A stretch of DNA of 64,000 bases from NCBI GenBank assembly GCA_017506865.1, contig JAFCMP010000005.1, forward strand, positions 124,001 to 188,000. The letters run 5' to 3'. Below are positions 272 through 46,500 of the stretch, in pieces. The notes beneath the pieces are model-generated. The model was given only the letters and a program-made list of their open reading frames with translations. It did no database searches and was not told the DNA's origin. The stretch comes from Tribonema minus (lineage: Eukaryota > Sar > Xanthophyceae > Tribonematales > Tribonemataceae). Both the position numbers and the translations under genes were made by a program. Position 1 is the stretch's first letter; each line of letters opens with the position of its first letter.

Positions 272-3200
272 CTGTATGACCTGCCCGTTGCTGAAGACAA
301 TGGCGGCGTCCGACAGCTCCAGCACCGTGTTCATGCTGTGCGATGAGAACAGGATGCCCACGCCGTGGACGTTGAGCAGCCGCCTCATGACGCCCTCCAC
401 CCTGACGCGCACTCTGCAATATACATACATACCATACACAAAAACAGGTGCGAGAGGGGGGGGAGGGGGGGGCATCAGCGCACTCTGCGTATACATCCAT
501 ACACCAACAGGTGCGGGCGAGGGGGGGTGGGGGGGTGAGGGGCATCAGTGCATCACACTGCAGAAGATTCCGCAGGTGTACGTCGCGTACTTACAAGTGT
601 GCCACGACGCATTGTCTGAAAAGTGGCGCTGGCAACAGACCTGCGCAAGCAATGGGTTGCATTTGCGGCTTTTCGTGTTGACGCAGCATGCATGTGCATG
701 CCTGCGATGTCAGGGCTTCGGCGTGACATGCGCACGACATGTACCGGGAGGGGGGGCACAGTCGTGCATCCTACATTGGTGGCGTCATATGTATAGCCCT
801 CATGCGTCAAAGCTACTATTGAGGGCGCAAAGCCGCACATTACCAAATCTGCTCATGTGCCCAAGCCTGATCAAGTGCTCCGCTTGAAGTTGTGTGCTGT
901 ATGATGCGCTGCCACGTTGCACATGGGACACATTGAGCTCCATACAGTTGGCTCTCTTGGTGTACACAAACACAAACATACTTGCACAAAAAATACATAC
1001 ACAGCGCTCAGCACTGGCGCCCGTGGCTCACTTCGCGAACACAGCGCAGTGCGCTCGGGCTCAGTCACCCGTCGCACTCACAGATAACCACAATACTGGC
1101 GCCGGCACGCATTCATACGCTGGCATGTACTTTGTGTGTGTACTGTGCACTCACGCACATGCCTTGCCTCAAATCCTTACGGACAACGCGCTTAGTGCAC
1201 TAGCAGCCCAGGAGGCTACTCCTTGCATTTATAGATCCCTTGCAAGTACACTCAACTTTGAAAAGGGTGTTCGCAACTGGTATACATTGATGTATGCACA
1301 TCCCCTAGCTACAAAGAAACGTTTCATCTGCGCTATTTAAACCTTGCATGCCATCCTTCCATTTCAGCAATGCAATGCTTGCTTTGTAGACTCATTTGGA
1401 CACAGCAAATGTGACCTTGCCCCAGCCAATCTGCTAACAGCTGGCAGCTTCAACAAGCACTACACTGTATTCTATTACAGGAGGGGGTGAGGGGGGGGGC
1501 AGGGGGGGCCCCGTGAACATTCTTGTTCAGTATATATGTATGCATCTACTCTCTGTACACACATTCCCTTGATGATTATTGATAATCAGTCACTGTATGA
1601 AGCAGGCCTCACCTCTGATCCTCGTGGTCCAGAAACTCGTCGCACAGCAGCACAGGGGGCTCCGGCCCCGCTACCCCCGCCGCAAGCGCCATCGCCAGCC
1701 CAAAACGCAGCACCTCGCCGCCTGACAGGTCCTGCAAGCACCAGAGCGCAGGAAAACACAATCATTGTAAAACCTTGCTGTCAAGCGTGATGTCATATGG
1801 ATTGCCGCCGCCCATGCGTGACATACTAGCTGATCATCATTGTGACAATGATTCCTGCAGCAGCCGCCTCGTCCCACTGCAGTGGCCATTGCATCACCCG
1901 CATCGAGCCACCATCAATGGGCGCTGGTTGCCAGAAGCACAACAAGCGATATGTCTGAGGTCAACATCGCCATTACGAGTTGATCGCCAAGGGCTGTCAC
2001 TACTTAGCTGGTCCCAGCCCATGATGGATTCCTCTACGGTGCTGTTTGCACGCGCATGCACGTAGTGCTTGCATGCGCCAAACTACTGTGCCAAGCTGGT
2101 TTGAGCTCAGTAGAGCTCCGTCCAAGCGAGCAGTGTGTCAGTTGAAGTGCTACAGCCTATCATGTTCCCATAACGTCGCCCACTGTTGGACACCACCCAA
2201 ATCGCCTGGATGAGATCAATGTCAGGCTGAGTTTCAGTTCTGATCAGGCACGTGGGCAGCAATGAGCTCTGTCACTGCCATTAGGTTTGTGCATGCGCCG
2301 CGCGCACTGGTGTGCCACATGTCCACACTGACGGTATATATGCATGCGTATGTAAGCCTCACAAATGCGAGCACGCACACGTCCATCAGGCACCAAAGCA
2401 GCAGACACACCACAACACCTCACGTGCACCCCTGCCCTGCCGCCCTACATCATCATACACGTCCACGTGAACTCAAATGCAGCGCGGCAGGCAGCGTGCT
2501 GACAGCATGCGCGTGCTACTACGGATATGATGGCACTGTTTGACTCGTGGCAAATGACTGCAGCAGCGGCGACCACGGTCATTGGTGGAAGGCACTTGCG
2601 GTAGACCACACCTTGTCACCTAGAGCTCTATGATATTTTGATTCGTTTTCATGCATGCAAACGTACGTAGTGCGCACTCCAATGCAAGCACTCACACCTC
2701 TGTCAAGCGGTGCAGCAGACACCCAGCTACATACAATCCACGCGCCCCCATACCCAGCCACCCTACATCATACACGTCCGCTAAAGTCGAATATCCACAG
2801 CGCAGCAGGCAGCATGCTGACAGCATGCGCATACCTGCGCCTTGGTCGCCGCCTTCGCCCCCGACTCCGCCATCCTCAGTACGCGATCCGCAATCTCCAC
2901 GACGGCTTCCGCGTGCTGCGCCGGCTATGTATAACACGCGCGCTCAACCCTGCCACCCTACATCATACACGTTCACTGAAGCCGCACATTTGCAGTGCAG
3001 CAGGCAATGCGCTCACAGCGTGTGCGTACCTGCGCCTTGCCCGCCGCCTTCGCCCCCAGCTCCACCATCCTCAGTAGGCGATCCGCAATCTCCGCGACGG
3101 CTTCCGCGTGCTGCGCCGGCGCGGCGCGTGCAATGCGCGCGCGCACGTTCGCCGCGACCGTGTGGCGCGGGTCGTGCGCGAAGTGGCGCGTGAGGTATAC

Positions 3201-6355: not shown

Positions 6356-8073
6356 TTAATCATCCTCGTCGCTGTCGAGCAAGCTGTCAAGCAGCGCGTC
6401 CTCCGCCCCCCCAAACGCCCCCGCTGCCGACAACCCCCTCAAGACACCGTGCCGTTCTTCGTAGTTGCTTGCGCCTGCCGCCGCCTGCACTGCTGCGCCC
6501 GCCATCGCCGCTGCTGGCGCCGGCGCCGATGTGACTGCACCTGACAGTTGCGCCTGCGAATGCTGATGCTGCGCCAGCTTGCTGCCGGCCGCTGCTGCCA
6601 GCGACACTGCAGACGCACTGCGCGCTTGCGACGGCTGCATCACTGATGGTGCTGCCGCCGGCGCTTGCGCAGGGGCCTTCGTATAGTAGTGGCTTTTGCT
6701 GTAAGGCCCGCTGCTGGAGCCGCTGCGTGGCGCGTCGCCACCGGTCTGCTTTGGCGGCAGCGCTGCCGCCGCTGCCGCCGTCGCTGCCGCTGATGAGCTA
6801 GATGCACCTTCAACGCCGACAGCCAGAGACTGTGTTGCAGCCACCACCATTGTTGCTGCTGCCGCAGCCGCCAACCCGGGTCCTCGCCCTCCTTGCGCTT
6901 TCGCATATGGCGCCGCCGCAGCAGCTGCGCTGGTGCCGTGTGGGGCGTGCGGGGCAGGCTGCATGGACGAGCGCTGCTGCTGCAATGGCTGCAGCGCTCC
7001 GTGCGACGCTAGCGGGGAGATCTGCGTTGACCGGAAAGCTGGCCCCTGCGAAGGCTGCTGTTCAGGCGCCGCTGCCGCTGCAGCACCAGCAGCACTGCCC
7101 TTGCTCAGCGGTAACTGCGCCGCAGGTGCTTGCGACGACGCCGGTGGCGCCTGATCCTGTGAAGCGTGATGCCAGAGCATTCCGCGCCCTTGGCTGGCTG
7201 TGGCCGCTGCTGAAGCTGCTGCGTCCGCCTGCGCCTGAGCACTGCTGCTGCCGCCATCGCCGCCGCTGCCGCCGTGGTCAGCGCGGCTGCCGGCAGCACT
7301 CACATCCTCAGCAGCAGCGCCTCCAGCAGCAGCACCTACAGCAGCAGCTGGCAGAGGCGGCGCCGGCGGTGGCCATGCGAGCTTTGGCGGCGTGCGCACC
7401 TGCGACAACAGCAGCGCCTCGTCTTCATCGCTGTCGATGTTGTCAAGATTCCCCCAGATTGAACCTGCTGACTGCTGCTGGAGCTGGAGCTGGAGCTGCT
7501 GCTGCTGCTGCTGCTGTTGCTGCTCATCGAGCTCCTGTACGCCTGGAAAAGCGGTGCTCGCCTTGCGTTTAGCTGCTGCGCTGGTGCCGTTGCCAGCATC
7601 AGTCCCTGCCGCTGCCGCCGCTGATGCTGCCGCCGGCGTGCGTGTAGCGGGCGTCACCGCCACGCCCTGCAGCCAGCGATAAGGCGTAGCACGGCTCGGG
7701 TCCAAGTGCCCAGTGCTCAACTGCTGCTGTACGCCGGGCGTACTGAATGGCAGTGCTCCTCTCTCCGCGCTCACCGTGTAAGGAGTAACCGCAGCTGCGC
7801 CCGCATTCGCTGTGCAGGGGGTCACGGCAACGGCACCACTTGCGTCGCTGCCTGCACCTGCGCCCGGCGTCTGCTGGAGCCGTGAGAAGAACGGGTGGCG
7901 CGGCGTTTGCTGAGCGTTGATGACCGCCGGCTTCGCGAATGGCAATGGCAGCAGGCTCTTGACAGCGCCGCCAGCTGCTGCCTGCTCGCCTGGCGGGCTG
8001 CGCTGCATGACATCCTGCTGGGAGTGGTGCTGGCGCTGCTGCTGCTGCTGTTGCTGTGACTGCTGCTGCTGCG

Positions 8074-8105
<32 letters not shown>

Positions 8106-9547
8106 GACTGCTGCTGCTGCGAATGTTGCTGCTGCTGCGACTGTTGCTGCTGCTGCGACTGCTGCTGCGACTCTGGCTGGTGCTGCTGCTGCTGCTGCTG
8201 CCAGTGCTGCTGAGGCGGCGGCTGCGGCAGCGGAGGCGAGAGCTGCTGTGCCTGCTGTGACTGCGAGAGCCGCTGCTGCGAATGGTGCTGTAGCCGCAGC
8301 TGTGACTGCTGCGGCTGTGATGCTTGCAGCTGCCGCTGCTGCTGTGAGCCCACCCCCCCCTCGGCAGGCGTCCGGCACACGCGCACTGCGGCGTGCCGCT
8401 GCTGCTGTGCCGCTGGCTTGCGCCCTGAACCCGCCGCCTCCGCCGCCGCGGCTGCAAACGTGTTCTGCAGCTCACGCAGCGTCCTGAATGCAGTTTCCCC
8501 CTCCTCCTCGCCACCCCCCCCGGCGCCGCCGCCGCCGCTGCCGTCGCGGCCGCCGCTGCTTTCGGCAAGATCCATCGCGTCGCTGAAGGCGGGCCCCCTG
8601 AGGCACGTGACCGCTGCCTCCGAGGGCATGGGCGTTGAGACCGGAAACACGGCCATGATGTTGTCGGGATGGATGTTGAGCGCGCGCTGCGTGCCGGGGC
8701 CCGACACCCAGATCGCCGCGCGCCGCAACGCCAGCGCCGCGCCTGTGACAAGGTCGCCGGCGTGTTCGAACAGCGCCTGCTGGTGCACGACCGCCTGGAT
8801 CTTCCCGGTGGGATCCGCGAGGGTGACGACCAGGTTCGCATCCGACGCCTTCGTCGCCGTGTCGATGACGGCGGCGATGAGCGGCGCGCGGAGGTCGTGG
8901 CGCCCCGCCAGGACGTCCGCGATGGCGCACGGGAAGGACTGGCGGAAGCGGCTCTCGGCGCAGAGCGTGCTGCCGCCGGCGGCGGCGGCGCGGTGCTGCT
9001 GCGGCAGCAGGATGTGCAGCGCCTCGCACAGCGCCACCCACGGCGCGCAGTGGAAGTGCCCGAGGGGCTCTGTCTCCTGGCTAGATGTCAGATCCAGAGG
9101 GTGGCTGCCGTTGTCGTCTTCATCGTTGTCATCGACGGTGATGGCCGTGGCAGGAATATCGGTGGTGGAAGGCATGCCTGCTGGTCCCGGCAGCCGCCTC
9201 CTCCGCTTTCCCAAGGAGCTAGTTCTGGGGACCCGCTGCTCCTGTGCGAGCTGGGGGAAGAAGTTTGGGGATTGCTGTTGATGTTGTATTGGGGGAGGCT
9301 GGCGCTCGATGTGGTGCAGTGGTTGCTCGTCATAGTGGGGCTGATTATACTGTGGTTCATGGTTTTGATGGCCATGTTGCTGTTGCCAGGGGACCTGCTG
9401 CTGCGGAGACGCCTGCTGCCTTCCTAGTGCCTGGAACGGCTCAGGCTGCAGAGGAGGGTGCGGCTCATGCCGCCTGTCCGGAGAAGGCGTGTCCTGGCTG
9501 TAGTAGAGCCTGAAACCTGGAGCAAGCGCTCCCTCTGGTCTCGGCAT
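6356..9547 (-). CDS. HROB: HROB-like OB-fold recombination protein, Gln-rich
   Basis: Single-exon frame of 1063 residues, ATG at 9547 and TAA at 6356-6358. The N-terminal third carries the conserved HROB features: a basic KRRRRLPGPAG motif near residues 114-124, then a helical segment and an OB-fold at about 165-305, with DANLVVTLADPTGKIQAVVH at 237-255 and NIHPDNIMAVFP near 291-302. HROB (C17orf53/MCM8IP) recruits the MCM8-MCM9 helicase during homologous recombination; that role is known for the animal protein and inferred here. The rest is low-complexity: long Gln, Ala and Ser runs and an acidic end (SDEDD). CAG/CTG-rich DNA makes many other frames look open on both strands; only this one matches a family. 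Low-complexity lengths may differ between alleles. Confidence 0.8.
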
Positions 9548-12824: not shown

Positions 12825-14066
12825 TCAGCATCCTGACGGTTCGACCATGCATTCGATGGTGTCATCGTCCTTAAGGCCGAGTTCGCTGGGCGTCTCGGAC
12901 GGCCACACGAGATCGCCATTAAGGAAGAAGCGCAGCGAAGACACCGGCTTGTCGGCGAACTGCATGCCAGCATAAACGGTAAAAGCCTTGGTCAGCGGCC
13001 TGTTGATGTTACATCTGAAGCATACTTCGAAGTACGATCGCACCTGAGTAACAATTCCGACTGCGTACAACGATTTTGGCCGACGACAGTGTCGCCAGCG
13101 GCGTCGTAGTCGCTGCAGCCGCCGTGACCGCGCCCCGCGCACCAGCCGCTCCATTGGTGCTGCTGCTGCTGCTGCTGCCCGTTCCGCTGCTGCTGCTGCT
13201 GCTGCCGCTGCCGCCGCTGCTGCCGCTGCTGCTGCTGCTACTGCTGCTGCCGCCGCCGCCGGTGCTGCTGCTGCTGCAGCTGCCGCTGCTGCTGGTGGCA
13301 TCAGCAAGTGGCCTCCTCGCAACACCGAAGCCAGCATGGGTGCTGCGGCTGCTGCTGTTGACGCCGCTGACGGGCATGCTGCGACTGCTGCCGTTGGCGC
13401 TGCTGCCAGGGGCGAAGGTGCGCCCACTGGCGGTGCTGCCGCCGCCGCCGCCGCCGCCTATTCTCCACGGCGCACCGGAGAACTCGCACTGAAGTCCTGC
13501 TCCGGCTTCAGCGTTCGCCGCCCTTTTGCAACCTGTGATGTTCGCTGCGCCATTGGGTGCACTGCGTTGTACTGCGCATACGGCATTCCCTCCAGCGTCT
13601 CCAGCAGCTGCTTGGCGTGACGTTACGCCATCTGCTGCGCCAGAGGGGCCCCAAACATGCGCAGGTGGCGACTGCAGGAAGTTTGCCTTGTAGGCCGCCG
13701 TCAGCTTTGCCAGCCTCGCCGCTTGCACCGTCGCGCTGTCGTGCAAGCCTTTCAAGCTGTGATGCACTAAAACGCCTTGCCTGACAACAGTCGCACAGAA
13801 AGCTTTGTATGCGACGGTATCCAGGATATGGCAGCGCCACACGTCGTCTACCATCGGGGACGGTAAATAGCTAGGAGAACCTGATGTATGTATATCGCCT
13901 GCGTGCACCTTGGGCGCCATGAACCTGAGGTAATCCTGCATCACGTCCAGGGCGACACCCTTGCTGAGAGGGTGCAGCGTGATGTAGTGCTTGAGAAGCG
14001 TTGGAGCGTCCACCGCTTCTTTTTGCACAGAACCAGCAGCTGCGCTGCAGACCTGGGCACCGCCAT
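12825..14066 (-). CDS. GRDP-like / SUMO-like protein, copy a, frame-disrupted
   Basis: First of three paralogues. From the ATG at 14066 the frame reads a start like the other copies (AAQLLVLC). A run of five A at about 14022 then puts the rest in another frame, which continues as KEAVDAPTLLKHYITLHP. The GRDP-like core follows (PMVDDVWRCHILDTVAY, then LVHH). The middle is Ser/Gly/Ala-rich. Near 13035, at a GTACTTCGAAGTA palindrome, the frame shifts again into a SUMO/ubiquitin-like domain ending ECMVEPSGC. Two shifts against its paralogues suggest a decaying gene, sequencing errors or, for the second, a 19-base GT-AG intron. The order of GRDP-like then SUMO-like domains is the same as in the intact copy at 50052. 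Confidence 0.6.
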
Positions 14067-15100
14067 CTGGGGCTCAAGTGCTGAAAAGATATACGGGCGC
14101 AGGCTTCGGTGGGAGATGATGATGATGCAGCTGGTCTCTATGCTCTGTCTCAGGCGATGGCCGATGCTGACCTCGCTGTGGCGCTAGCTAGCAGCAGCCG
14201 CTAGCTAGCGCCTGGTATAGCAGGTGTGCCCCCCGACCGTAGGGCGCGAAAATCGGGTTCAAAATAGAGTTGAAGTTCGTATTTTAAAAACTTGACAGCA
14301 TCAGTGTCCCGATATCAGCAGAGTCCCGATCTCAGCTTGTAAACATAGCATCTGAAAGCAATGTCCATGGATGTGTCAATGTCCATGGATGTGTATGTGT
14401 CAATGGACACTGCAACAGCCAGTGAGGAAGAGGGGACATCAGTTTAATCCTGGAGCAACTGGCACCGCGTTGGTCAGCGCTCCTGTAGTTGTCATGTCTG
14501 GTGCCATAGGGGCTCTGCACGCGCTTGATGGCTTGCCACTGCAGCAGCAGCTTGAGCACACACACTGTAGGAGTCGCAGCACATGGTATGATGGCATGTG
14601 TCATGATGTATGCAAACAGTGCAATCTGAGCATGGCTGCTCTGTATAGATAGCCCTGCTTCAGAGTACAGTGTATGCTGAAGGCAGTGCACTGAAGCTAG
14701 AACATATGCACACCTGGCTCCCCGCCAGTCAGCCGGTGCGTTCACAACCAGCGAGACAAGCGGCCGTCAAGGAGGATGTCCAAGTGTGCATACATTGCTG
14801 AAAGGAGAAGCACGTCGTATGCAAATGCTGCCAAACCTCTGCACAAACACTGTTGCATGGCAGCGATTCTCTGTACAATACACTAAAGACCGCAATACCA
14901 TAGCATCATGTGCATGCTGAGCAACTGATGCGGTAACAGTGCACGATGGAATACACAATGCTGTCTGCCACAGTGCAAGTCATCGCGCGCACAACATAGG
15001 ACAGCGCATGCACGTTGCAGCGCCGCACATTTGCTCTCACACAACACGCAGCCAGCCTTGCTTGAGGCCGAGAAAGCACAGAAATGCTAGAACCCGTCAT
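14067..15100. other. Intergenic, probable promoter of copy a
   Basis: No gene recognised. CGAACTTCAAC occurs on the minus strand at 14269-14279, about 200 bases before the copy-a start, matching the motif at 9588 and 49934. A short direct repeat (ttgtccatggatgtgt-like) lies at about 14360-14395. Confidence 0.4.
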
Positions 15101-16262
15101 TCATTCATGGTTGGTCCACGCTGCCGCATTGGGCAGCGAGAGACGCCTATGGGGTGTCAGCGTCGTTGCTGCGCACTTTGCTGCACTGAAGTGACGGGGC
15201 GCCTCATACACGCAGTACAAGACGTCGCCGTCCCTGAGGCCAAGGGTCTGAGCCGTGTCACCGGGCCGAACGTCCCTCCCGTGAACGTTGAACTTGAGGT
15301 ACAAAGGGTTCAGGGCCACGCGGCCACCGTACGCATCGTAAAGCTCGGTGAGCGACGTGAAGTGCCTGAGTGCGAAGAACTGGTCACCGTGGCCGAATGT
15401 CATATCTTTAATGCACAATGTGTTGCTCGCCACTGCTGGCAGGCCGCTGAACAGAAAGTTTTGACTGTTGGCGCCGATGGCCGCACCTGATGCTGCCCCG
15501 TTGCTGATGCCAAGGCGGCTGCCACCGAAGGCGGGGGCTGCTGCTCCACTGATGGCGGTGTTGGCGCTGCGGTAGTTGTTGCTGCTGCTGCAGCTGCTGC
15601 AGCGGCACGCACCGATGCCAGTCTGCTGCCCTGTATATCTGGCATGCAGAGGCGCAGGCTGCTCCAGCAACGTCGCCTTGTGTCCTCTTGCGTTTTTGGG
15701 CCTCTGCCTTTACCGCCGCTGTCCCGGCCGATGCGTACCTTGCTAGCGCCATCGCTGCGTCCTTCGTTGCTCCGTCCGCAGCTGCTGCTTCGCCGGGGGC
15801 TGCAGAAGTTGCAGCCTCACTGGATCCCCACACGTGTGTGGGCGGCGTCTGCTGAAAGCTGTGCACGTACACCGCCCTCGTCCGCGCCACTCCTGCTGCT
15901 GACTCAGGTCTCACGTCGGGCACGCTCACGGGGCTGTGGTGCACGAAGCCGCCAGGTCCTAGGATCGCCTCGCAGAACTTCTGATAGGCGACAGTGTCCA
16001 CGATGTGGCAGCGCCACATCTCGTCCACTAAGGGCGAGGGCATGAGGCGGGCATTCACGGCATTTACGCCAGTCACGTCCATCTCGTGGGCCTTGAGGGC
16101 CATGAACTTGAGGTACTCCTGCGCCACATCTTGGGCGACGGCTTTCCTGTGAGGATACAGCGTGCTGTGGCCCTCAAGAAGGGCAACGGCGCTCACTGCT
16201 TCGCTGCACAAGCGCAGCAGCTGCGACGCGTCTTTGGGCTGCGCCATCTGCGGTAGTTCCAT
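15101..16262 (-). CDS. GRDP-like / SUMO-like protein, copy b
   Basis: Starts at the ATG at 16262. The GRDP-like part has YLKFMALKAH, then SPLVDEMWRCHIVDTVAY, then GPGGFVHH, the same spacing as the other copies. A basic patch (KAEAQKRKR) follows. The first frame ends in poly-Gln at 15408, while the matching continuation (SSSNNYRSANTA and a SUMO-like domain reaching DGDVLYCVYEA) is in the next frame, ORF 15670-15101. An intron of length 1 modulo 3, for example a 46-base GTGCGT...CCGCAG candidate near 15625-15580, or a one-base indel would join them. Copy b ends with about 30 extra residues instead of Gly-Cys. Function unknown; GRDP (PF07173) proteins are described in plants and fungi. Confidence 0.65.
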
Positions 16263-16465
16263 AAGTAGTACTGTGATTTAGGCGTATACCGCCACTTTCG
16301 TCAACTGCCACTTCTCAAATCTTCAATCTTGAACTTCGAGTTGCGCAAAAAAAGAGAAGATCTCCACAGTCGTTTGGGGACTTGTGCGCGTTCTGCAAGC
16401 TGACATCTAGCTGTCTTAAACATATTTGCACACCTTTCAAGTCCTGGAAGCGCAGCATAGACAAG

Positions 16466-30044: not shown

Positions 30045-33000
30045 ATGAGCATGGAAGCGGAAGCTGGCGACGTTGGTGCCGCCACCAGGGCTGCCTCTGC
30101 TCTGTTAGCACAGCATGTGAGGACGCTGGAAGTGCTGCACGAGGTGCAGAAGGAGAACGCTCGGCTCAGGGCCGAACTCAAAAGGCAGGAGCAGGAAAGC
30201 GCCGCCAAGACGGATGCTGCCGTGGCTGATGCCGTGTCAAGAGCTGTGGCAGAGGCAGTGGCGGAGCCCAACAGCACTGCTGCGTCTCTGCGCAGCTCCT
30301 GTCGCGAGCTAGAGGGCAGGCTGGCGGCGCTGCAGGGAGAGATGGCCAAGCAAGAAGCGGAATCCAGTGAGGTACAGTGATCACGGCGTAAGAAGGAAAT
30401 GTCTGCTGCTTTTGCGTAGACATAGACGTTGCCAGAGCAGATCGCGAGCGCGGTGTGGATGCGCAAATTTTTCTGGTCGTGCTTTTATGCAGCACACAAC
30501 ATCTAATGCCAAGGATGAAGGTGAAATGTGGAGCTGTGAAGCCCTGAGGCTCGTCCGCATGATACCAGTGAATACGCAGGCAGAACGCAGAGACCCGAAT
30601 GGTGAAATGCGGCGGACGCTGAAGAAGAAGTAAACTTCAGCTGTACCGTCGATCTTGCCTGAAGCAGGAGGCACACTGCAGCTGTACTCATCGCCAGCGC
30701 CGCAGCCGTCTGCATGCTTCAATCATCACTGGTGCGGAGTCAGTGCGCGGCCGTGCAACGCCAGTCGCCAGATTCTTGACCACACGGCGACAGAGGGTGT
30801 TGCCGCGGCCAGAGCCCAAACCCGCGGTGCTCTCAACGTCACCAGAAAACCCTGTGCTCAGCAGCGGTGTGCCGCCGCTGCTGCTGACTAACGCAGCAGC
30901 TGTCATCAGCACTTCAATCACGCTGCGTAAGCGCTCAGCATCGTTTCGAATGCGCTGCAGCGACTGGCGGCGGCACGCAGCGAGCGCGCGGACGCGCAGG
31001 CGCAGCTGCAGCGGCTGCTGGCGGCGCACCGCGCGGCGCAGTCGCAGCTGGACGAGGCGGCGAGCGGCGCGGCGCAGCGTGCGGCGGCGCGCGACGCGGA
31101 GGAGGCGGAGCTGCGGCAGGAGCTGCTGCGCGCGCAGAGCGCGGCGAAGCTGGAGGCGGGCAAGGCGGCGCAGGCGGAGAAGCAGCTCGAGGTGCGTGAT
31201 GTTGGAGATTTGAGGTGCGATGGGCAATAAAGCTCGGGGTGCGTGGATTGGGAAGTGAGGTTTGACTGAGCAGCGATGCTGGAGGCGGGCAAGGCAGTGC
31301 AGGTGGCGGAAGCTGCTCGAGGTATGCAAAGTTGAAGTTGAGGCGCGATGAGCAATAAACTTTGAATAGAGCTCCAGTATGTGGATTGAAGTGAGGCGCG
31401 GAAAGCAGCTCGAGGCACGTAAGTTGAAGTTGAGGTCCAGATGAGCAGCTGGAGGCAGCAAAGTTGGCGCAGCGGCAGAAGCGGCTGAAAGAGTTTGATC
31501 ATTTTCTGTGTGCAGAACGCAGGTCAAGGTGCATGAGTTGAAGTTGACATTCCATGAGCGGCGAAGCTGGGCGCTGCCCCGCGTCGGCGCGGCTGCAAAC
31601 GCAGCAGCTCGAGGTGATTGATTTGAAGTTGGTGTTTGCGCGCTGCCACTCGCACATCTACGTGTGTCCGGTGCAAAGCTGCTGCCTCGCGTGAACTAGC
31701 ACTGAGCGCGGAGGACGCCTCAGTTGGTGCGTGTCGCCTGCGGCAGCACCGCGGGGATCGTGAGCGCCATCGTTGCGCCAGTTGGGCAGGACCGGTCCTC
31801 TTTATGTGGCGGACACAGCATGCTGTGCGGCAGACATGGAGCCCCGGCAAGCGGTGCAGTTGTAATACTGGCTCGAGGTCAACGGCGGCAGCATGATGAG
31901 AGGCGCATCATGTGTGCACAGTGCTCATGCGCCCCGCACTAACATGCTACATACACTGTTCAAATCAATATGCAGTTGCAATTTGTAATGCAAAATCGCG
32001 TGTGCCACTGAGCGCGTGCCTGTAGGTGGGCGCAGAGGAGCTGCAGCGGCAGGCGCCCTACGCAAAACGGACGCGCTTGAACCTCAAGCAGAAAGTTACA
32101 TGTGCACTTGCACTTGTGGGGGGGAGAAGCGCCTTACACGGCACCACAATCTTCACTCACCCACAGATGCCCTTTGCACCCCGCCTGCATCTCTCGCCGC
32201 GCTGCCGCCGCCGACGCCTCCTCTCCACTCCGCCGCCGCTGCCGCCGCAGACGAGCGAGCGCGAGCTGCAGCAGGCGCGCGCGTCGCTCGCGGCGGGCGC
32301 GCTCGAACTTCAAGCCCTGCTTGAAGAGAAGCGCGCGCTCGCGCGCCGCGCCGACGCCTCCGCCACCGAGGCGCGCCTAGGGCAGCTGGAGGCGCAGGTG
32401 GGGGAGATGGAGGGGGAATTGGGGGCTGCGCGGGCGCTGCGTGCGGAGTCCGAGAAGGCGCGCCAAGAACTTTCCGCAAAGGTCGCGGCGCAGGAGGCGG
32501 CGTACGCGCTCGTGCGCGACGAGCTCGCGCGGCGCGGCGCGCAGGCGGAGCGCGCCATGGCCAAGGTTAGGCTTACGCATCACTGTTGTGAGTGGAAGTC
32601 TGATTACAGTACTGTCTTGACGTTTCATCTTGAAATTTGGATGCGGCGTACGCGCTGGTGCGCGACGAGCTCGCGCGGCGCGGCGTGCAGGCGGAGCGCG
32701 CCATGGCCAAGGTTAGGGCTAGGAGTGAAGTTAGGATTGGGTAGTTAGATCCACTTGGAACTTGTGTATTGAAGTTTGAATGCAGCGCGTTGCATGACAC
32801 GCTGGAGCGGCGCGGCGCGCAGGCGGAGCGCGCCATGGCTAAGGCAAGGGCTAGGGGTCGATGTTATGAGTGAAAGGGGGTCTGATTGCTCTCTTGAATA
32901 TTCATCTTGAAGTTTGGATGCAGCGCGCGCTGGTCCGCGGCGAGCTCGCGCGGCGCGGCACGCAGGCGGAGCGCGCCATGGCCAAGCTTAGGGCGACGGG

Positions 33001-34281
33001 TGAAGTTAGGACTAAGAAGTTAGATTCGCTTGAACTTGTTGTCGTAATGGTTGAATGCTGCGCGCGGCGCTGCGCGACGGAGGACCGCGCCACGGCTAAG
33101 GTCAGGTCTAGTGGGGGTTCGACGGGCGGGCATGCTGCATTCACTGAAATATTGATCTTGGAGTTGGAATGGTGCGCGTTGCATGACATGCTGGCGCGGC
33201 GCGCCAGGCGGAGCGCAAAATGTATGCTCCTGCTTAGCAAACCCTGCCCCTAGGGCCGACAAGCAGTAATGTAACGTATATGACGTGTTTGCAAAAGGCA
33301 CCAGTCGCTGCACAGTTTTCTTGTGTGGCTCTGCACAAATCCGGCCGATGTGCCCTCTTGGCAACTTCAAGCTGTTGTATCGCGGGGGTTCACTCCTCAC
33401 TGTTCAGAAGAGCTGTTTGCTCCGCAACAGATTAAATTTGAAGAAGCATGATTCTCGCACGCCCTTGCCACACGAGCCTCCAAATGCTGCCCTACGTTCT
33501 GTACACCCTCTCAATTTGAGTCTCAAACCGCGTTTGACCATCCATGCCTATGCTGACGCACAAGCAGTGGCGCAGCGGCAGCTTTTGCCCACGGCGCATC
33601 CTTGAGCATTGACACGCATTTATTACACAGCTCTTACAACAGATTGGAACTGGCAATTGAAGCAGATCCTACAACATATTGCACAAGTGGAGCCACATAA
33701 CCCCTTTTTCTCATGATGCTGCGCAGCTCATGGAGGAGCAGCAGCGCTCGCGCGCGCTCGAGGACGCCGCGGCAAGCGCCGCCGCCGCCGCTGCCGCCGC
33801 CGCCGCCGCCGCGGCGGAGGAGCAGGCGGCGCTGCGCGCGCGCGTCGCTGAACTTCAAGATGAAGTTGCGCGGCTGCGCGGCGAGCTCGCCGGCGGCCCC
33901 ACGCAGTTCGGTCGCTACGTGGACGCGAAGCGCGAGAACCGCGTGCTGCGCGCGCGCGTGGAGGGCCTGGAGGCCGCCGCGATGCGCGCCGGCACGTCTG
34001 GCGGCGGCGGCGGCGGCGGCAGCGCCAAGCAGCGCCTGCTGCTGCAGCGGCAGCAGCAGCAGCAGCGCAAGCACAGTCGCAGCAGCAGCCTGGGCGGAGG
34101 CACGGAGGGCGCGGTGCTGCCGGGAGGGCGGAGATTGTCGGCGCCCGCTGGCCCGGTGTTTGGCGCTGCGGCCGAGCAGGGGGGTAGTGCGGCGGGGACG
34201 CCGCGGTCGCAGGGGGGGGAAGAGAGGGGGGTGGGGAAGATGGTGCTGCCGCACGTCAAGCCAGCCGCCCTCATGTACTGA
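30045..34281 (+). CDS. Coiled-coil protein, head to head with DRC2
   Basis: Four exons, all phase 0: 30045-30371, 30961-31191, 32251-32565, 33727-34281, giving 475 residues. Almost the whole chain up to about residue 360 is heptad-rich coiled coil (LAQHVRTLEVLHEVQKENAR, then AAQAEKQLE, then LVRDELARRGAQAERAMAK). Near the end is a conserved-looking GRYVDAKRENRVLRARVEGL segment, then a Gly/Ser/Gln-rich tail ending HVKPAALMY. I do not recognise the family. Its start is 88 bases from that of DRC2, so the two may be co-expressed and the product could be ciliary; that is inference. The introns after exons 2 and 3 hold copies of the preceding exon ends. A longer frame from a TTG at 29994 is not needed. 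Confidence 0.7.
31150..31620 (+). repeat. Copies of coiled-coil exon-2 end
   Basis: The exon end (aagctggaggcgggcaagg through agcagctcgag, then GT) at 31148-31193 recurs at about 31276-31324, 31391-31412, 31444-31485 and 31560-31615. Several copies keep ctcgag followed by GT or GC. The intron piece aagttgaagttgagg follows most copies. Confidence 0.75.
32490..33225 (+). repeat. Six tandem copies of coiled-coil exon-3 end and donor
   Basis: The exon end (peptide DELARRGAQAERAMAK, donor GTTAGG) at 32490-32570 recurs at about 32639-32715, 32779-32850, 32917-32993, 33053-33112 and 33167-33222. Spacing is about 120-145 bases. The donor GT is kept in the first and fourth extra copies and lost in others (GC or CT). 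Each copy is preceded by a repeated ttgaa-ttggatgcag stretch that could serve as an acceptor. Confidence 0.9.
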
Positions 34282-37392: not shown

Positions 37393-38841
37393 TCACATGC
37401 CGCTGATGGCGCGCACGGCGGCGCCCAGCTGCGCGATCGCTGCCACCAGCTGCAGCGCCTGAGCGCTGTCGACGGCGGCGCGGCGCAACTTCAACTGTGC
37501 CTCATCGAGCTTCCCGTACAGCGCATCGAGCGCGCTCTCACGAACGCGCTTGCGGGCGTGCTCGAACCGCCCCTGCGCCGCGTAGCGTTCCTCAGACCTT
37601 TCCGTAGACTGCGCTGCAGTCGTAACGTGCTGAGCAGAGCCCTCCACCTCCATCGCCTGCTCCTGCGGCGCATCTGTCGCCGCTGCTGCTGCCGCTGCCG
37701 CCGCTGCCGCTGCTGCTGCCGCCGCCGCCGCTGCTGCAGCTGCTGCCGGCGCTGGTGCCGCGCTGCGCTGCGCAGCAGCGACGCCGCACGCGACGCACTC
37801 CGTGACGCCTGCGCGGCTGCGCACGAGCGGCGTGTTGCAGCGTTCAGCGGCGCAGCACTCGCTCAGCATCGTCCAGCCCGACAGCATGCGCGCCGCCAGG
37901 AGCTCGCTGGCGTCGCACTGCTGCCGCTCTTGCGGCTCCTCCTCCCGCTGCTGCTGCGGCAGCGGCGGTGCATGCGCGCTGCCTGCCGCCGTAACTCGCG
38001 ACGCCGCCGAGGCAGCGGCAGCGGCGCTGCTGCTGCTGCCGACGCCGCGGATGCACCGCGGGCAGAAGCTCTCGTCCGCGCCGCGTGCGCGCAGTAGCGG
38101 GGTGACTCCGCACTGCGCGCAGTGCTCGCTCAGCATGGCGTGCCCCTGCAGCAGGTACTGCCCCAGCAGCGCGCTCACCTCGTCGCGCCTGCGGCAGTGC
38201 TCCGCAAATTCCGACTCCCCCATCACTGCCGCGCTATCGTCATCTGCATCATCGTACTGACTGGGATCATCATTGGGATCATCGCGGCTGAGGGCTCCTG
38301 CTGCTGCTGCCGCGGCGACGCGTTGCTCCGTCGCGTGCCGCTTCCGCTCCGGCTCGCCAGGGGAGCTCATGCCGCTGATGGAGGCCGTGGGGGTGGCGGC
38401 GGCGGCGCACACCACGCACAGCACCTCTCCCGCAGCGCCGTTCCTCATCAGAGGTTGATAGCAGCCAGGGGCTGTGCATGCCTCGGCCAGCATCGTCCAC
38501 CCTCGCAACAGATGCTCGGCCACTATGGCATCGCCAGAGACATGTGGTATTCGTGGCGCTGCTGCCATGACTGCCTCCATCTGCGTATCGTCCATGGCAG
38601 CAAGATTGGTGGCAGACGTAGGGCTGCTGTCGCTAGCGCTGTGCGCAGCCGCCCTGTAGGCCTGTTCTTCCGTGAGGCAGTAGCATTGGCAGCTCACACA
38701 GAAGATTTGCTGGTCCCTGGAGCGCAGCAGCACCGTGGAGCATTGAGGGCAGTGCTGAGACAGCATCGCCCAGCCCTCGGAGAGTCGCTCGCCGATTTGC
38801 CTATGTAGATCGCCCATTAGATCAATGTGAGGTTCAGACAT
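37393..38841 (-). CDS. Protein with four Auto-anti-p27 (ZNRD2-type) zinc fingers
   Basis: Single exon of 482 residues, ATG at 38841 and TGA at 37393-37395. Four repeats of the pattern GW-ML-C-x2-C-...-L-R-...-C-x2-C are spread along the chain: about 23-51 (C31, C34, C48, C51), 114-145 (C122, C127, C142, C145), 233-263 (C241, C244, C260, C263) and 322-352 (C330, C335, C349, C352). This is the Auto_anti-p27/UPF0148 fold, seen once in human ZNRD2 (Sjogren syndrome autoantigen p27). Fingers 2 and 4 have four residues between the first Cys pair instead of two. Acidic (about 187-203) and Ala-rich linkers separate them; a helical C-terminus ends the chain. Four copies in one chain is unusual to my knowledge; function unknown. 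Confidence 0.8.
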   Translation of the reverse strand: MSEPHIDLMGDLHRQIGERLSEGWAMLSQHCPQCSTVLLRSRDQQIFCVSCQCYCLTEEQAYRAAAHSASDSSPTSATNLAAMDDTQMEAVMAAAPRIPHVSGDAIVAEHLLRGWTMLAEACTAPGCYQPLMRNGAAGEVLCVVCAAAATPTASISGMSSPGEPERKRHATEQRVAAAAAAGALSRDDPNDDPSQYDDADDDSAAVMGESEFAEHCRRRDEVSALLGQYLLQGHAMLSEHCAQCGVTPLLRARGADESFCPRCIRGVGSSSSAAAAASAASRVTAAGSAHAPPLPQQQREEEPQERQQCDASELLAARMLSGWTMLSECCAAERCNTPLVRSRAGVTECVACGVAAAQRSAAPAPAAAAAAAAAAAAAAAAAAAAAAATDAPQEQAMEVEGSAQHVTTAAQSTERSEERYAAQGRFEHARKRVRESALDALYGKLDEAQLKLRRAAVDSAQALQLVAAIAQLGAAVRAISGM

Positions 38842-41192
38842 CGCATCCAGTAGTTACAGTTGACGAACTCGTGACGCGCCATGTTTTCCGAAGTGAGCGA
38901 GCAGAGGCTGCGACCGAGTCCGCGCGCGAACAGGACGAGGGCGTCAGCCCTCGCTGCTTGTGCTGCAAATGGCGGGTTGCTGCCCTGCCCTGCGAGGCAT
39001 GGAGACGCGTTCGCTCTGTATGCCGGCTCTCACTATGAATCTATGCAGAGCTGCATTACATTCTGTTCTGAGCGTCGGTCCCGGATGCAACAGTTCACTG
39101 CCAAACTTTGCGAATACGTAAAACTATTGCATTGGCGCAGCTGCGGCTTTGCTAAATTGCCCCGAGACACAGATCTGCGTTAGCCAATATAAGCGGTGGC
39201 GGCGCACTAGTCGGATTCACACTCGTGCCTGCACATGTATACCAATCAGTGCACCGCTGCCGCAATGGACTCCGCGCTCACTGCTGCTGTGTCTGTTGAA
39301 GCACGGCAACGGCCAAGGCTGCATGCCAGGCGGTGTGGGCAGCTCCACTTAAAGTTGGCTTTTGTGAAAGTTTGTGTGCAGTCTTGCGTCCGCACTATTG
39401 GACGCTGTGCAGCGCCGCTGCACTTACGCAGCTTGGCATCATGCAGGTGCACCAGATCCATTTATAGCTGTCTGCAACGCCTGCTGCGTGAGCGTCATGG
39501 GCGGCGGGCCAGAGCCGTTGCAACGTGTCGCTCAAGGCGAAGGACAGGCGTGCTGACAGCCAGTTCACCCCGGTATTGCACATCAGGGTTAGGGGGCTGA
39601 AGGGGGGGCGTGTGCGTCAGGCGCTTTCAGTCTCCCTGGCACAAGCGCTTCTGAACACCGATGTCGGACGTCCATGTAGGGCGTGCGACAACACACTTTT
39701 CCGTTGGCTGCATACATGGCCGTGAGTAAGGTGCACGTAGGTAGGTAAGTGAGATATCTGAGCTGCGCATGATGACGCTCCGCCCTTGGGGCGAGAACGA
39801 ACTGAGCGTGTGCTACCGAGCTTTTGCGACGCGCCACTGGCAGGGCGACATTCGCCCCCCTGCGCTTCTGCTCGCGATCACGCACTGCTACCCTAGGCGG
39901 CCCATCACGCATGCGCACGCCAGCGCAGCATTGCAACAGCAGCAGCAGCAACAGCGGCATCGCAACAGCAGCAGCATTGCAGCAAGCAACCGCACGCGCG
40001 CACTCCGCGATGGTGTATGACCTCCTTGTATAAATGTGTGTGTGTCACGGTCGTGTGCGAGAGCGGCTCCGTAGGCAGCTGCTCACGGCAAGATCAACGG
40101 CGGGACCCAACGAGAGAATTACGATACACGAGCAGTGCTGCCCCCCCCACACACACCCCCATCCCCCTTGATCCCTTCCCCCATGGCCCCCTGGGCCTGC
40201 GTGCCCAGGGGCACCCGCACGGCACTGCGAGCGCCGTGCGTCCAAGCCACAAACATACAACAAATACGTCGTTCCGCGGTCCCCTTGCAAGAGACCCCCT
40301 GCACTCCATTGCGGTGCTGAGCTCCCTGCACCGTGTGTGCAGATGCCCGAGCTGTCACCGCCGCGGGCACCCCCCCGCCCCTGGCCCTCCCCCCCCCCCC
40401 ATGTCCCCGTTCTGCAGGGCAGCTGCAGGAAGCGCAGCGCACCGTGCCTCACAAGGGGGGGGGCAGCTGGTCTCGGGTTGCGTTTATGCCCAGTGATCAA
40501 GGGCAACATCGCGGTCATTGAGCGCACTCTCAGACACAGCTAAGAATACGCGCGCACATAGGCGCTGAGCAAATCCGAGCCATAGCTCTCCGTCAACGCC
40601 ACGCAACACCCCTCTCCATGAAGCCCCCCCCTTCCCCCTCCCCCTTCCATCCGACTGCAATGTACCGAACCCCAAGCCATCGCCCCCCCCCCCCCCCCCC
40701 CCCGGGCAAACTTCACATGCCTCGCGCAGCAGCGGCACGTTTCGCGGCCGCCGTCGTCGTCACACGCCCCGTGGTGGAGCGCCCCCGACTCTGATCGGCA
40801 GAGTGGGCTATACTGCCGAGCATCACCACCCCGCAGCAGCGCTCCCCCCTGCCCCCTTAAAGGAGCGGCAGAGAGTGGCTGACCGCCTCCGCACACACCC
40901 CAACGTCCGAGTGGCGGATCGTTCAAACACTGAGCACCACCTTCGTGTAGCACCGCTCGCCCCTGCCGCCTCATAACGGCTGACTGATGAGCACCATCAG
41001 CGTGCAGCGCCGCTCGCCCCTGCCCAGATAAGGAGCACCAACCCCCCCCCCCCCCCCCTAAAAAAGGAGCGGCAGAGTGGCTGAATAACGAGCATTATCA
41101 GCGCGCAGCACCGCTCGCCCCTGCCCCAGGTGAGCAGCATCAACCCCCCTGCCCCCTCAACCCCCTCCCCCAAATCTCCCCCCCAATCCCCC
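38842..41192. other. Intergenic, C-rich, no firm gene
   Basis: A frame from the ATG at 38881 to 39183, 39 bases from the zinc-finger start, could be a head-to-head gene but resembles nothing known. A CAG-rich stretch lies near 39940-39990. From 40135 to 41190 the plus strand has many C runs, the longest about 22 bases near 40681 and 15 near 41043, mixed with repeated cagcaccgctcgcccctgcc-like blocks (about 40945, 41010, 41105). Confidence 0.45.
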
Positions 41193-41421: not shown

Positions 41422-43519
41422 TTGCGCGGCCGCACGAGCGGCTCAAAGTCGAAGTGGTGCGCGCCGCGCGCCGACTCCGTGTCGGTCAGGCACGGGCCGG
41501 CCATGTTGTCGCCGCCGATGCCGGCGGCGGCGGCGGTGGCGGCGGCGGCGGCAGTGGCGCCGCTGTTGTCGGCGGCGCCGCTGCCGCTGCCGTTGCCGCG
41601 CACGGTGAAGGGCGCCTCGGTGCCGGTGCCGCGCGTGGTGAAGGGCATGTTGAACCTTTGTGAACGCGCGCAAGGGTGGGGTGCGCACATAGGATTGACA
41701 AGGAAGGGTTACAGTCTTTACCACAGTCTTTACCATGCTGAAGTTGGGGCTGGGGCAGCTGGCTTTTGGCGGGTCTCGTACAGGTTGAGGCGGTCACGCG
41801 CAGCAGCGCTGCGCAGCGGCGCTGCCGCCGCCGCGATTGCTGCCGCCGCTGCGCCTCTTTGCAGCTCACAGTTCGCGACTTCAGTCAGCTGTCCTTGAGT
41901 AAAGGATTCGAGAAGGCTAAAGCTGAGAAGCAGACACTGCCATCATCCGGGCGGCAGCCAGTGCCCAGAAGCTCTACACAAATCAGTGCAACAACACGCG
42001 ATGGCGTCACTTATCCTATGCGCCTACGTACATACCTACATGGAATGCAATCAATGTGGTGGTTTTATTTGGGGGGGGGGGGGCAGAGGATGCAGTGCAT
42101 GCGAGGCAATTGGCTACCTGGGCACAAATGTCCTGTAATGCCCCCTATCCTAATAACGTGTGTCCGCTTCTGCTTCTTTGACGGTATACTGCAAGCTGTG
42201 CATCATGTGTCTGGTTGAATAGGAAGTCTGTCATTTGACTAGACGTTTGCACGCACCTGTCGAGTATGAAGGGGCTCATGCTGCCCATCAGGCCCCTGGG
42301 GCGACGGGAACGGCAGCTCCGACTACATTGACTTCACACTTGAATTATTACTTCAATCAAGCATACTAAACAGAAGCGCGCGCGCACCTGTCGAGCATGA
42401 AGGGGCTCATGCTGCCCATCGGGCCCGGCGACAGGAACGGCAGCTCGGACTGGAACAGCTGATCCGCGTGGTGCGGGGTGGGGAGGCCGAGCCCCGCAAA
42501 GTCGCCGCGCGCGGTCGGCAGCGGCGGCGGCATGTCGCCGTCGCCAAATATGCCGTTGCGCGCCTTGGCCTGTGAGCGCGCGGGAGTAGGTTAAAGGGGG
42601 GGCGTGAGCGGTTGCCGGGTGTTGCACGATACATGGAAACACATCAGAAGATTGCAGAGTTCTAGGTGACAAGGGATGGTCAGCCGCAAGTGCCTTCCAC
42701 CAATAACGGTGGTCGATGCGTGCCGTTGCGCGCCTTGGCCTGCGAGCGCGCACAAGGAGGTGTAAGGGGGGGCATGAGCGGTCGTGGGGTGTTGCAGGAG
42801 GGGGGGGGGCGCAAAGTCGCCGCCCGCGGTCGGCAGCGGCGGCGGCATGTCTCCGTCGCCAAATAGGCCGTTGCGCGCCTTGGCCTGTGAGCGCGCGGGA
42901 GTTGGGGTAAGGGAGGTGTCACAGGATGTTGCACGGGGGTTGGGGGGGGGGAGGGTGATGTTGTGCTTGGGCACACGCGAGGGGGCGAAGCGTAGCGCAT
43001 GTGAACGGATGGTAAGCTGCATTGTACCACTAGATGTTGATGTCGCAGTTGAGCGCCCGAGCTGCGCTGAAAGCGCAACCAGCCCTGGCGTGATCTCATC
43101 ATCCTCACTCACACGCCTACATCGCTCGAAACCTACACCATGTCGCGCACACCTGCACAGCACCCCGCCCCCCGCACACCCCCTAGCTTCAAGACTTCAA
43201 GTACTTGGAAGTGCATACTCGCGCTGTGCGCACCTGCGCGCCCTCCCCGTCCCACGCCTCCGCGGCCGCCGCCGCCGCCGCCGCCGCCGGCGACGGCGGC
43301 GCGAGCGCGCGCTGCCGCTCGTGGTGCAGCCACACCATGGACGCGGGCATGAGCCTATCGCCCGCATGCGACAGGAGGCCCAGGATCAGCCGCACGTGCT
43401 TGCCGCGCCGCTTGGGTGTCGCGGGCGTCTGCGGCAGCGTGGCAGCGGCGGCGGCGGCGTTGACGCGCGTGCGCTTGTTCTCGCGCTCGCCGTCGCCGTC
43501 ACCGTCGGCGGCGGCGTCT

Positions 43520-43556
<37 letters not shown>

Positions 43557-46500
43557 TCGCGCCCTGCGCGCGCAGCACCGCCGCCGCGCGCGCGCGCTGC
43601 TCGAAGGCCTCCGCCGCGACGTCTGTTTGGACAGGGGGCAAGGGTGCAAGCCTTTTGTGTAAGTGGCCCATATACAGGTGAGATGCACAGCGCAGTGGAA
43701 TATTGTGTGGCCTCGACGGCGGAGCAGCGGGGGGCGGCAGCAGCGGCGGCGGCAGCGGCGGCGGCAGCGGTGGCGGCGGCATCCAGCGCGCGCACATGCG
43801 GTGTCGCAGCAGCTGCCTTGATGCGCTGCTCAAACGGCTCTGCTGCCTGTGTCTTGACGAATGCACACGTGATATGGAATGTAGTCTTCAAATCACCGAG
43901 GCACTGTTGCCATTGCACCAGAGCACAGAGCTCCTCGTTCGAGCTGTCCAGACCAGCATCCTAGCAGCACACGCTAGATTCTGCTTCACTTCGGGTCGGT
44001 ACATGCTTCTGAGCACATGGACACATGAAAGTCGGTAGTACCTTTGACGCCAAGCTGTTCTAGCCCGTCGGCGAGGCCCGTGGACGCCGCCTTGGCCGCC
44101 TTCTTGCGCGCTTCTGCCGCCGCCGCCGCGCTGTCCGCCGTCAGAACCTCAACGTTGGTGTTCACAAAGAGCTCGGGGCGCTTGCGCTTGGGCCGCGCCT
44201 CCCCCCCCTCCCCCTCCCCCTCCCCCTTCGCCTCCTCTGAAGCGCTGCTGCTGCCGCCGCCCATTGGACCGCCGGCAGCAGCGGCAGTGGCGGCGGCGGC
44301 AGCGGCGGCGGCGGCAGCGGCCGCGGCGGCGGCGGCGGCGGCGATGGCAACGGCGGCGCTGCTGCTGCCGCCGCCGCAGTTGCCGTGCTTCTTGCCCGCG
44401 CTGTGCCGCGCCGCCTCTAGGAAGGGGTTCTCGGCGGCAGTCGGCGATGCCACAAAGGGCGCGAGGATGCCGCCCATGGGTCCGCCGCCCCCGCCGCCGC
44501 CGCCGCCTCCGCCGAGCACCGCCGGCGGCACGGGGCACAGCAGCGCCATCTGCTGGTGCTGCTGCTGCGAGATGACGGCCGGCGGCAGCAGCGGCGCCGC
44601 CGGCGCCGGCGGCAGCGGCAGCTGCTGCTGCGGCGGCGGCGGCAGCAGCAGGCCCTGCGCGTCCATGGCGGCGAGCGCGTCGGGGGCGGCAGCGGCGGCG
44701 ACGGCGGCGGCGGCGGGGTGCTGCTGCGGCACGAGGCCGAGCACTGCTGCAGGGAGGGGCGGCTGCAGGGCGGCGGCGGCGCCCATGGCGTGGTTGGCGA
44801 TCTGCTGCATGTCGTGCAGCGCGTGCTGCGCGCGGCGGCAGGCGAGCGACGGGGGGGTATCGGGGGGGGGGAGGTGGGGGGAGGTGAGGGTCTGCGCGAC
44901 AGCCATGCGCCGCGTTCACGGGTACATGGGTGTGCCTCATGGGGACATGTTTGCGTGTAGGAGGCACAGCCGGGTGCAATGCGGTTGCGGCGCGAGCGGT
45001 GCAGCAGAGTTCTGTTGAGTGGCGGCCGTTTGAGTGCCTCTATGTTCCGCAGCGTGCGGACAACAGAGGCGACCTTGCTTTGGACCACTATGGTAGCAAC
45101 TTTTGCTATATGCACTTGTGGTCAGCGGCTGTCCACCACAGTCCACGTGTGAACTTCTGCGCACTTGTACTGTCGTGCTCACGTCGGCGATGACGCGCAC
45201 CTGGTGCAGACCGCCTTCATGGCGCCATTATGCTCTTGTAGACTGTGCAATACCAGCCATTCATTCATTCCCTCATCGTACACATTTGCTTTCACCAACA
45301 GTCAACTGCAGTCTACGTGAAAAGTCCACTGCAGTCCACATGAGTCCGCCGCAGTCCACATGAACTCTGTGCGTACCTGCACCGTCGCGTTCACGTCCGC
45401 CATGGCGGGCACCTCTTGCAGCCCGCCTTCATGGCGCCATTGTATGCGCTTGCATGCTGTACATTACCAGCTATTAAATCACTCACTCACATAGTTCATA
45501 ATTGCTTTTCCTAACAGTCCACTGCAGTCCACATGAGTCCAGCACAGTCCACGTTTGGATGCACCTGTACTGTCGCGTTCACGTCCGCGATGGCGGGCAC
45601 CTGGTGCAGCCCGCCCTTCTGGCGCCGCCGCGCATTCTTACAGATTCCAATACACCAGCAATTCATTCACGTCACGCAGTCGTTGTACCTACTGGCAGAG
45701 TCCACCACAGTCCACGTTTGGACGCACCTGTACCGTCGCGTTCACGTCCGCAACCTGGTGCAGCCCGCCCTTCTGGCGCCGCCGCATGTTCTTGCGCATG
45801 GTCGAGTACCAGTGATTCTTGATGGCGTTGTCGGTACGGCCCGTGAGCAGCTTGGCGATCTCGGCCCACTTGTTGCCGAGGCGGCGCTGCGCGTTGTAGA
45901 TGACCTGCTCTTCCTCGTCGGTCCACGGGTCGCGGCGCAGCGACGGGTCGAGGTGGTTGAGCCACCTGCACATCGAGAGAGTTGAAGGGTACAACACATC
46001 AGGGGCAGTAACCATTCAATTTTGTGTATGCGTACCTGGTCTGACATTGCTTGCCGGAGCGCACGGCGCCCTCAACCTCCTCGCTTGCGCTCTGAGCGAT
46101 GAGGGACCAGCGCGCATCAACACATACCCACATGCCCCCCCCCCCCCACCCCCACCCCCAAGTGAGGCAAACGCCTGCAACTGCCTGCATGTATCCGCCA
46201 GGCAGGCCCGCATTGCACACACATGGACGCGGTGACTCAGCAGCACGAGGCTTTGCAAATATTGTACTTCAATGTTGTGGAAGCATACCTGGTTCGACAT
46301 TGCTTGCCCGAGCGCACGGCGCCCTCGACCTCCTTGCTCAGGTTCTGAGCGATGAGGGACCAGCGCTTGACGCCGTAGTGCGTGACGAGACCGGAGATGG
46401 CGTCGTCCTCTCTTTTGCTCCACGCGCGCCGCTCGGGCCTGCGCAGCGGCAGCAGCAACACGTAGCGTGCACGGCGTGGTGTGTCAGCATTGTCGGCGAT

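Follow-up and report, generated by a model that had tools for sequence, protein, structure and literature searches.

What makes an intron grow, and from where does the additional sequence come? Intron lengthening is usually attributed to transposons and other insertions. A stretch of 64,000 nucleotides from Tribonema minus (contig JAFCMP010000005.1, positions 124,001 to 188,000; hereafter the window) raises the question in a different form. Here the introns of several genes contain tandem arrays in which the repeated unit comprises an exon edge (the last or first tens of bases), the splice site and the adjoining intron, arranged head-to-tail within the neighbouring intron. In the window, in kinesin genes and at arbitrary loci elsewhere in the genome, exon borders carry such arrays in greater numbers than random placement predicts, and the extra length of the introns sampled is carried by tandem copies, mostly of the introns' own borders. 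The arrays probably arose by tandem duplication across exon borders, followed by amplification and neutral decay.

Border-derived arrays in the window

Self-BLAST and reading of the sequence identify tandem arrays in at least six of the window's genes: those encoding an ABC protein, an ankyrin-like protein, DRC2, a coiled-coil protein and a MYB protein, and a gene at 42249-42916. A preliminary description of this DNA had reported border-derived repeats in the first five; self-BLAST recovered them in every one and added the sixth. Direct repeats in the window are dense and local, both donor-side and acceptor-side arrays are present, and within each array a single unit recurs head-to-tail at one locus, as in tandem repeats of the minisatellite type. 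The arrays are listed below, with the live border or exon start, where placed, distinguished from its copies.

2739-3120, minus strand: ABC-protein donor array; live exon tail ending at 3030 and followed by the donor GT at 3029; a single strong copy at 2925-2739.
17432-18136, plus strand: ankyrin-like donor array; live border 17468/17469; five copies, each of 35-37 nt of exon, the splice site and intron.
18804-19017, plus strand: ankyrin-like acceptor array; live AG at 18989-18990, copy AG at 18874-18875.
24763-25199, minus strand: DRC2 acceptor array; live exon start near 24805; two upstream matching stretches, one with a mapped junction.
25633-27279, minus strand: DRC2 donor array; live border 27145/27144, supported by homology; nine junction-mapped copies in an intron of 2.34 kb.
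27329-27553, minus strand: DRC2 acceptor array; live exon start near 27379; one upstream copy.
27627-28096, minus strand: end of the upstream DRC2 exon with several donor-type copies, from self-BLAST and sequence reading.
31141-31620, plus strand: coiled-coil donor array 1; live border 31191/31192; three junction-mapped copies; self-BLAST reaches 31359, the remainder coming from junction mapping only.
32493-33216, plus strand: coiled-coil donor array 2; live border 32565/32566; four junction-mapped copies (GT, GC, CT, GT).
42249-42451, minus strand: donor array of the gene at 42249-42916; live border 42388/42387; one copy.
42495-42916, minus strand: acceptor array of the same gene; live AG/exon start 42570/42569; two upstream copies.
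45131-45793, minus strand: MYB donor array 2; live border 45728/45727; three copies.
46015-46366, minus strand: MYB donor array 1; live border 46289/46288, supported by homology; one copy 253 bp downstream.

The strong copy in the ABC gene matches at 84% over 187 bp, at a distance (d) of 196, by self-BLAST, and the following exon, judged by eye, starts with DLSGGE near 1732. For coiled-coil donor array 2, a two-unit period of 275 is also reported by Tandem Repeats Finder. The GT is kept in all nine DRC2 donor copies with a mapped junction, and in one DRC2 copy the exon part extends to 135 nt.

A tandem repeat of another kind is seen at 60998-61317 (plus strand), where a leucine-rich-repeat gene has a 72-bp repeat within its open frame; this is a protein repeat, not an intron array.

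Comparison with conserved proteins helps to identify the live borders. The DRC2 exons on either side of the 2.34 kb array-filled intron join in a gap-free alignment of 112 residues to residues 111-222 of 7ju4 (E 3.7e-20), whose DRC2 chain we take to be that of Chlamydomonas. The MYB exons join without a gap between GKQCRTR and WLNHLDP when compared with c-Myb (1h88), the gaps in that alignment lying earlier. Where homology was checked, the outermost splice site (first donor or last acceptor) is therefore what yields the conserved protein, and the copies are intronic.

Border arrays in kinesin genes on other contigs

A Pfam profile served to locate kinesin motor exons in the genome (132 matches), and 12 loci were taken, the first five of which were chosen for their long spans, which biases the set towards long introns. 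To place the splice borders, a profile was built from seven further kinesin genes of this genome. Seventeen of 21 introns, from 8 of the 12 loci, were kept and four were dropped as ambiguous; repeats in the loci with no kept intron (for example 51% of L026) were not placed. Arrays of the same type occur in kinesin loci on contigs C141, C516, C13, C180 and C526. Confinement to the contig of the window, which the preliminary description had named as the result that would overturn its proposal, was therefore not found, either here or in the arbitrary pieces described below.

Sixteen of the 20 local repeat arrays in the 17 homology-defined introns cross an exon border, and four are wholly intronic. 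Random placement predicts only 4.2 border-crossing arrays (0 of 200,000 simulations), and 5.2 are expected when arrays are subtracted from the introns and single units are placed (0 of 1,000,000 simulations). When exon sequence is taken out, the number of arrays ending no more than 10 bp from a splice site is 9 of 17, compared with 0.43 expected (0 of 500,000 simulations). The border excess is thus retained in an exon-free test, and exon conservation is not its cause.

The exon part of the 16 border arrays spans 21-95 nt, close to the 30-95 bases first described, and the intron part of the unit 44-194 bp. On average the exon contributes 51.5 nt of a 168 nt unit, a share below that predicted by uniform placement (P 0.001). 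Sixty-mers taken from exon edges beat every null in the adjacent intron at 15 of 34 borders (5 of 17 donors and 10 of 17 acceptors). In a mid-exon control 3 of 11 60-mers also exceeded all nulls in the adjacent intron, because the arrays extend up to 95 nt into short exons.

Arbitrary loci and genome-wide spread

Fifteen 10-kb pieces of the genome (an assembly of 158.18 Mb in 554 contigs) were chosen by contig number and fixed position, and exon edges in them were predicted with a coding-periodicity model trained here. Tested on the 49 kinesin exon segments on which it had first been trained, this model recovered 40, and its median border error was 10.5 nt. The pieces hold 27 arrays, making up 6.6% of bases, and the window is richer, with 28 arrays and 16.9%. 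Exactly one predicted exon edge is crossed by 14 of the 27 arrays in the pieces (5.9 expected, P 0.002) and by 17 of the 28 in the window (8.8 expected, P 0.002). The 18 edges crossed among the 304 predicted in the pieces divide evenly into 9 donor-like and 9 acceptor-like. Extrapolation from 27 arrays in 150 kb gives a rough figure of tens of thousands of arrays genome-wide.

Chaperonin genes were also considered. At some places (for example C51:21979-22639 and C5:352998-353558) chaperonin profile matches duplicate the beginning or the end of the exon match beside them, as is expected of exon-edge copies. A light-harvesting exon has Chattonella subsalsa as its best relative bearing an organism name, at 57% identity, while relatives bearing none are closer, at 80-83%; this comparison would suggest, though no more than suggest, a raphidophyte-like stramenopile alga.

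Contribution to intron length, and relative age

The mean length of the introns with arrays is 1259 bp (n=13) and of those without 624 bp (n=4). When the arrays are subtracted, the array-bearing introns average 632 bp, which does not differ significantly from the array-free introns (P 0.70, with only four of the latter), and intron length tracks the number of array bases (rho 0.82). An intron between LTRxLx and (D/E)SLGG is common to four kinesin paralogues (L019, L020, L021 and L028), which have different arrays in it or none; the arrays are therefore younger than the intron at that position.

Divergence of the copies

Differences between 65 copies and the live exon number 56/713, 56/706 and 103/707 at codon positions 1, 2 and 3 (7.9%, 7.9% and 14.6%). 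The GT/AG bases of the copies are kept in 131 of 142 cases, so that 7.7% have changed, the same rate as at codon positions 1 and 2. In four sets the borders as used in the counts were off, by 4 nt for ANK_a and by 1 nt each for DRC2_a1, DRC2_a2 and DRC2_d1; copies from these sets are included in the identity and breakpoint tallies but not in the GT/AG count, and have no reading frame in the codon-position, shared-change and age counts.

The equal change at positions 1 and 2 indicates that there is no visible coding constraint on the copies, and the excess at the third position is the one that change in the constrained live exon itself would produce. Of 12 changes found in a majority of the copies in an array, nine are at third positions, as are all four of the changes common to every copy. 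We conclude that the copies look neutral, like decaying fossils. The constraint on coding and splice sites that would mark functional duplicated exons is not seen, and the earlier hint of live cryptic exons is not borne out.

Better conservation of the exon-derived core, also noted at the outset, is clear for donor arrays, in which identity to the live copy is 0.88 for exon and 0.71 for intron (exon higher in 13 of 14 arrays), and weak for acceptor arrays (0.81 and 0.75; exon higher in 9 of 14). It mostly reflects a constrained source exon as against a drifting source intron, rather than working copies.

Growth of the arrays

Border arrays have from 1 to 9 copies, and in 16 of 28 arrays at least two copies are mapped. 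Five of these 16 have an exon-side breakpoint that is constant to within 5 nt (the ankyrin donor array, L020_0_a, L020_2_d, L020_2_a and L022_1_a), and in two more it is nearly constant (L020_3_a and L021_1_a). Spacing also varies within many arrays. Copy divergence fits a single age in 9 of 11 arrays.

Several more particular modes of growth were considered. A gradient in which the copy nearest the border is the youngest is clear in DRC2 (rho -0.86), yet the mean rho over 13 arrays is only -0.33, and the idea was rejected. Likeness between neighbouring copies does not exceed that between distant copies (0.745 compared with 0.757; higher in 6 of 13 arrays). The idea that donor copies are mini-exons preceded by AG was likewise rejected, with AG at only 5 of 38 copy starts. 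Copies that share a change are often two places apart (8 of 10 pairs, judged by eye and post hoc); a whole-unit lag test for two-unit amplification gave P 0.14, with 9 of 13 arrays in that direction, and we do not claim such a mode.

Origin of the arrays

The best reading of these observations, and in our view a probable one, is tandem duplication spanning a border, then amplification, then neutral decay. The initial event would be a tandem duplication with breakpoints on either side of one exon-intron border, which could be tolerated if splicing kept using the outer site. Near-identical copies might then multiply through slippage or unequal exchange and, once diverged, would freeze and decay. 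On such a scheme the exon core should differ from its source by about t, the source exon hardly changing, and the intron part by about 2t, its source drifting as well. The initial proposal that local duplication across exon borders lengthens introns is well supported by the border excess and by the length that the arrays contribute.

Several results weigh against this reading or complicate it. The kinesin loci are a non-random sample, as the first five were chosen for their long spans, and the 16 border arrays all fall in four of the eight loci (four in L019, seven in L020, two in L021 and three in L022), the five kept introns of L027-L030 having none; expression or chromatin may matter for this clustering by gene. 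In the chaperonin CCT gene L039 exon copying is found at only 1 of 10 borders, with one further array that ends near an acceptor. Splicing was deduced from homology. The exon-side breakpoint varies in nine of the 16 multi-copy arrays, so that only a minority of arrays point clearly to a single founding duplication; some of this variation may stem from decay at the ends of the matches, and some from repeated separate duplications. Two of the 11 arrays compared for copy age hold an older outlier copy, and a summed test rejects uniform age (P 0.0006). Distance from the border barely predicts identity (donor rho -0.27, P 0.10; acceptor rho +0.14, P 0.41). Compared with one another, donor copies are more alike in the core (0.80) than in the intron part (0.69), beyond what a constrained source predicts; the corresponding values for acceptor copies are 0.75 and 0.71. 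Finally, a simple star of independent copies fits incompletely: shared changes agree with expectation (19 compared with 16.9) but private changes are too few (98 compared with 134), and by codon position there is an excess of changes present in the majority of copies (9 compared with 2.3 at third positions, 3 compared with 0.7 at the others) and a deficit of private third-position changes (34 compared with 54.5).

As to the cause of the border preference, we lean towards a mutational hotspot at the exon-intron junctions of transcribed genes rather than towards selection. One specific form of this, which we put forward tentatively, is that the junction is a hotspot for DNA duplication, where breakage linked to transcription or splicing might be followed by repair that duplicates some 85-280 bp across the junction, such that introns would grow outward from their own splice sites. 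For example, RNA could pair with its gene so that the introns loop out, which would place branch points exactly at both exon edges. Older exon sequence would then be left inside the intron as a fossil record.

Another possibility is that ordinary tandem duplication occurs anywhere, that exonic duplications are purged by selection, and that border arrays only seem commoner as their exon part stays recognisable for longer. Four of the 20 kinesin arrays do lie wholly inside introns, exon parts are better conserved, and we have found no mechanism for a border preference, all of which this account would accommodate. It is nevertheless unlikely, given the exon-free test, in which detection gains nothing from exon conservation and yet 9 of 17 arrays have an end within 10 bp of a splice site, 0.43 being expected.

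Less likely again is that the copies are functional and kept by selection, whether as alternative mini-exons, as decoy splice sites or as enhancers that recruit splicing factors. Retention of GT in 9 of 9 junction-mapped DRC2 copies would suit such roles, as would the greater likeness of the core than of the intron part between donor copies. The rates of change at codon positions 1 and 2 (both 7.9%) and at GT/AG (7.7%), however, point to no constraint on either protein or splice signal, and reading through to the donor of the first or second copy meets stop codons in 12 of 13 cases tried.

Two further explanations we consider highly improbable. Under the Rogers model an intron is born by tandem duplication of an exon segment bearing AGGT, and the arrays would be left-overs of that birth. 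This invokes the same kind of DNA event, and a potato intron is described as following a boundary duplication (PMC4974935). Here, however, donor copies lie near the donor and acceptor copies near the acceptor, and they copy different exons; two arrays of one intron have no mutual self-BLAST match; and the intron that four kinesin paralogues have in common predates its arrays. Assembly of tandem repeats is error-prone, and the arrays might on that ground be artefacts, but an artefact is expected to give near-identical copies anywhere. Instead the copies have diverged (mean exon-part divergence of 4-16% in 11 arrays), unit length is gene-specific, and both in four kinesin loci and in six window genes the arrays are placed on borders.

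Least probable of all is an introner or other mobile element with splice ends, as might be suggested by the occurrence of arrays at introns on several contigs: each unit is built from its own exon edge and, in a search of the 158 Mb genome that ignores simple repeats and very common words, two of three array queries match only themselves and the third, from DRC2, matches elsewhere only through a low-complexity stretch of 80 bases rich in CAG-like words.

If border-spanning duplication and decay is the correct reading, each array would serve as a simple neutral clock, in which the copies retain earlier versions of the exon, and comparison of copy decay with exon change would separate mutation from selection on the same sequence. 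Were junctions true duplication hotspots, splicing or transcription would shape DNA mutation. There is also a warning for gene finders, in that such introns hold many intact-looking splice sites and pieces of exon.

Other features of the window

A long single-exon gene at 6359-9547 (minus strand) encodes an HROB OB-fold domain (Pfam E 1.4e-15) together with glutamine and alanine runs, and one open frame at 37396-38853 (minus strand) has four matched stretches of the p27 autoantigen family. Three open frames, at 13012-14073 (minus strand), 15411-16277 (minus strand) and 50019-51125 (plus strand), appear by eye to be related, with a common VDxxWxCHI...VAYxxFC stretch; the last of these ends in a ubiquitin-like domain. 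At 57369-57578 there are 35 GCGGCA units with a 96% match, open in at least two frames.

Comparison with known systems

Intronic minisatellites, whose tandem units range from tens to hundreds of bp, also amplify and decay, and the arrays share with them units of this size; to our knowledge, genome-wide anchoring of minisatellites on exon borders has not been described. Among the matches listed in a literature search, most papers in subscription journals lying outside its scope, there was no genome with introns lengthened by border-anchored arrays. Both a single boundary-crossing duplication and intron gain by tandem duplication are already in print.

Introner elements resemble the arrays in being a genome-wide process that affects introns. 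Introners (PMC9860276) copy themselves into many genes and create introns, whereas the arrays tested here are locus-private and derive from the host exon edge. None of the three arrays searched has similar copies dispersed at many loci, and the distinction from introners drawn in the preliminary description is upheld for these. In the tandem-duplication model of intron gain (PMC3443670), a local tandem duplication likewise involves splice-like sequence, but there the duplicated exon segment provides both of the new sites, whereas the arrays here copy one existing border.

The closest parallel is the potato RdRp gene, in which an intron arose after tandem duplication across an intron-exon boundary (PMC4974935). 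The duplicated segment, the 3' end of an intron with the 5' part of the next exon, corresponds to the event that would found an acceptor array. The potato example, as described there, is one case, in which a new intron was made; in Tribonema minus many arrays, of both donor and acceptor type, lengthen introns that already exist.

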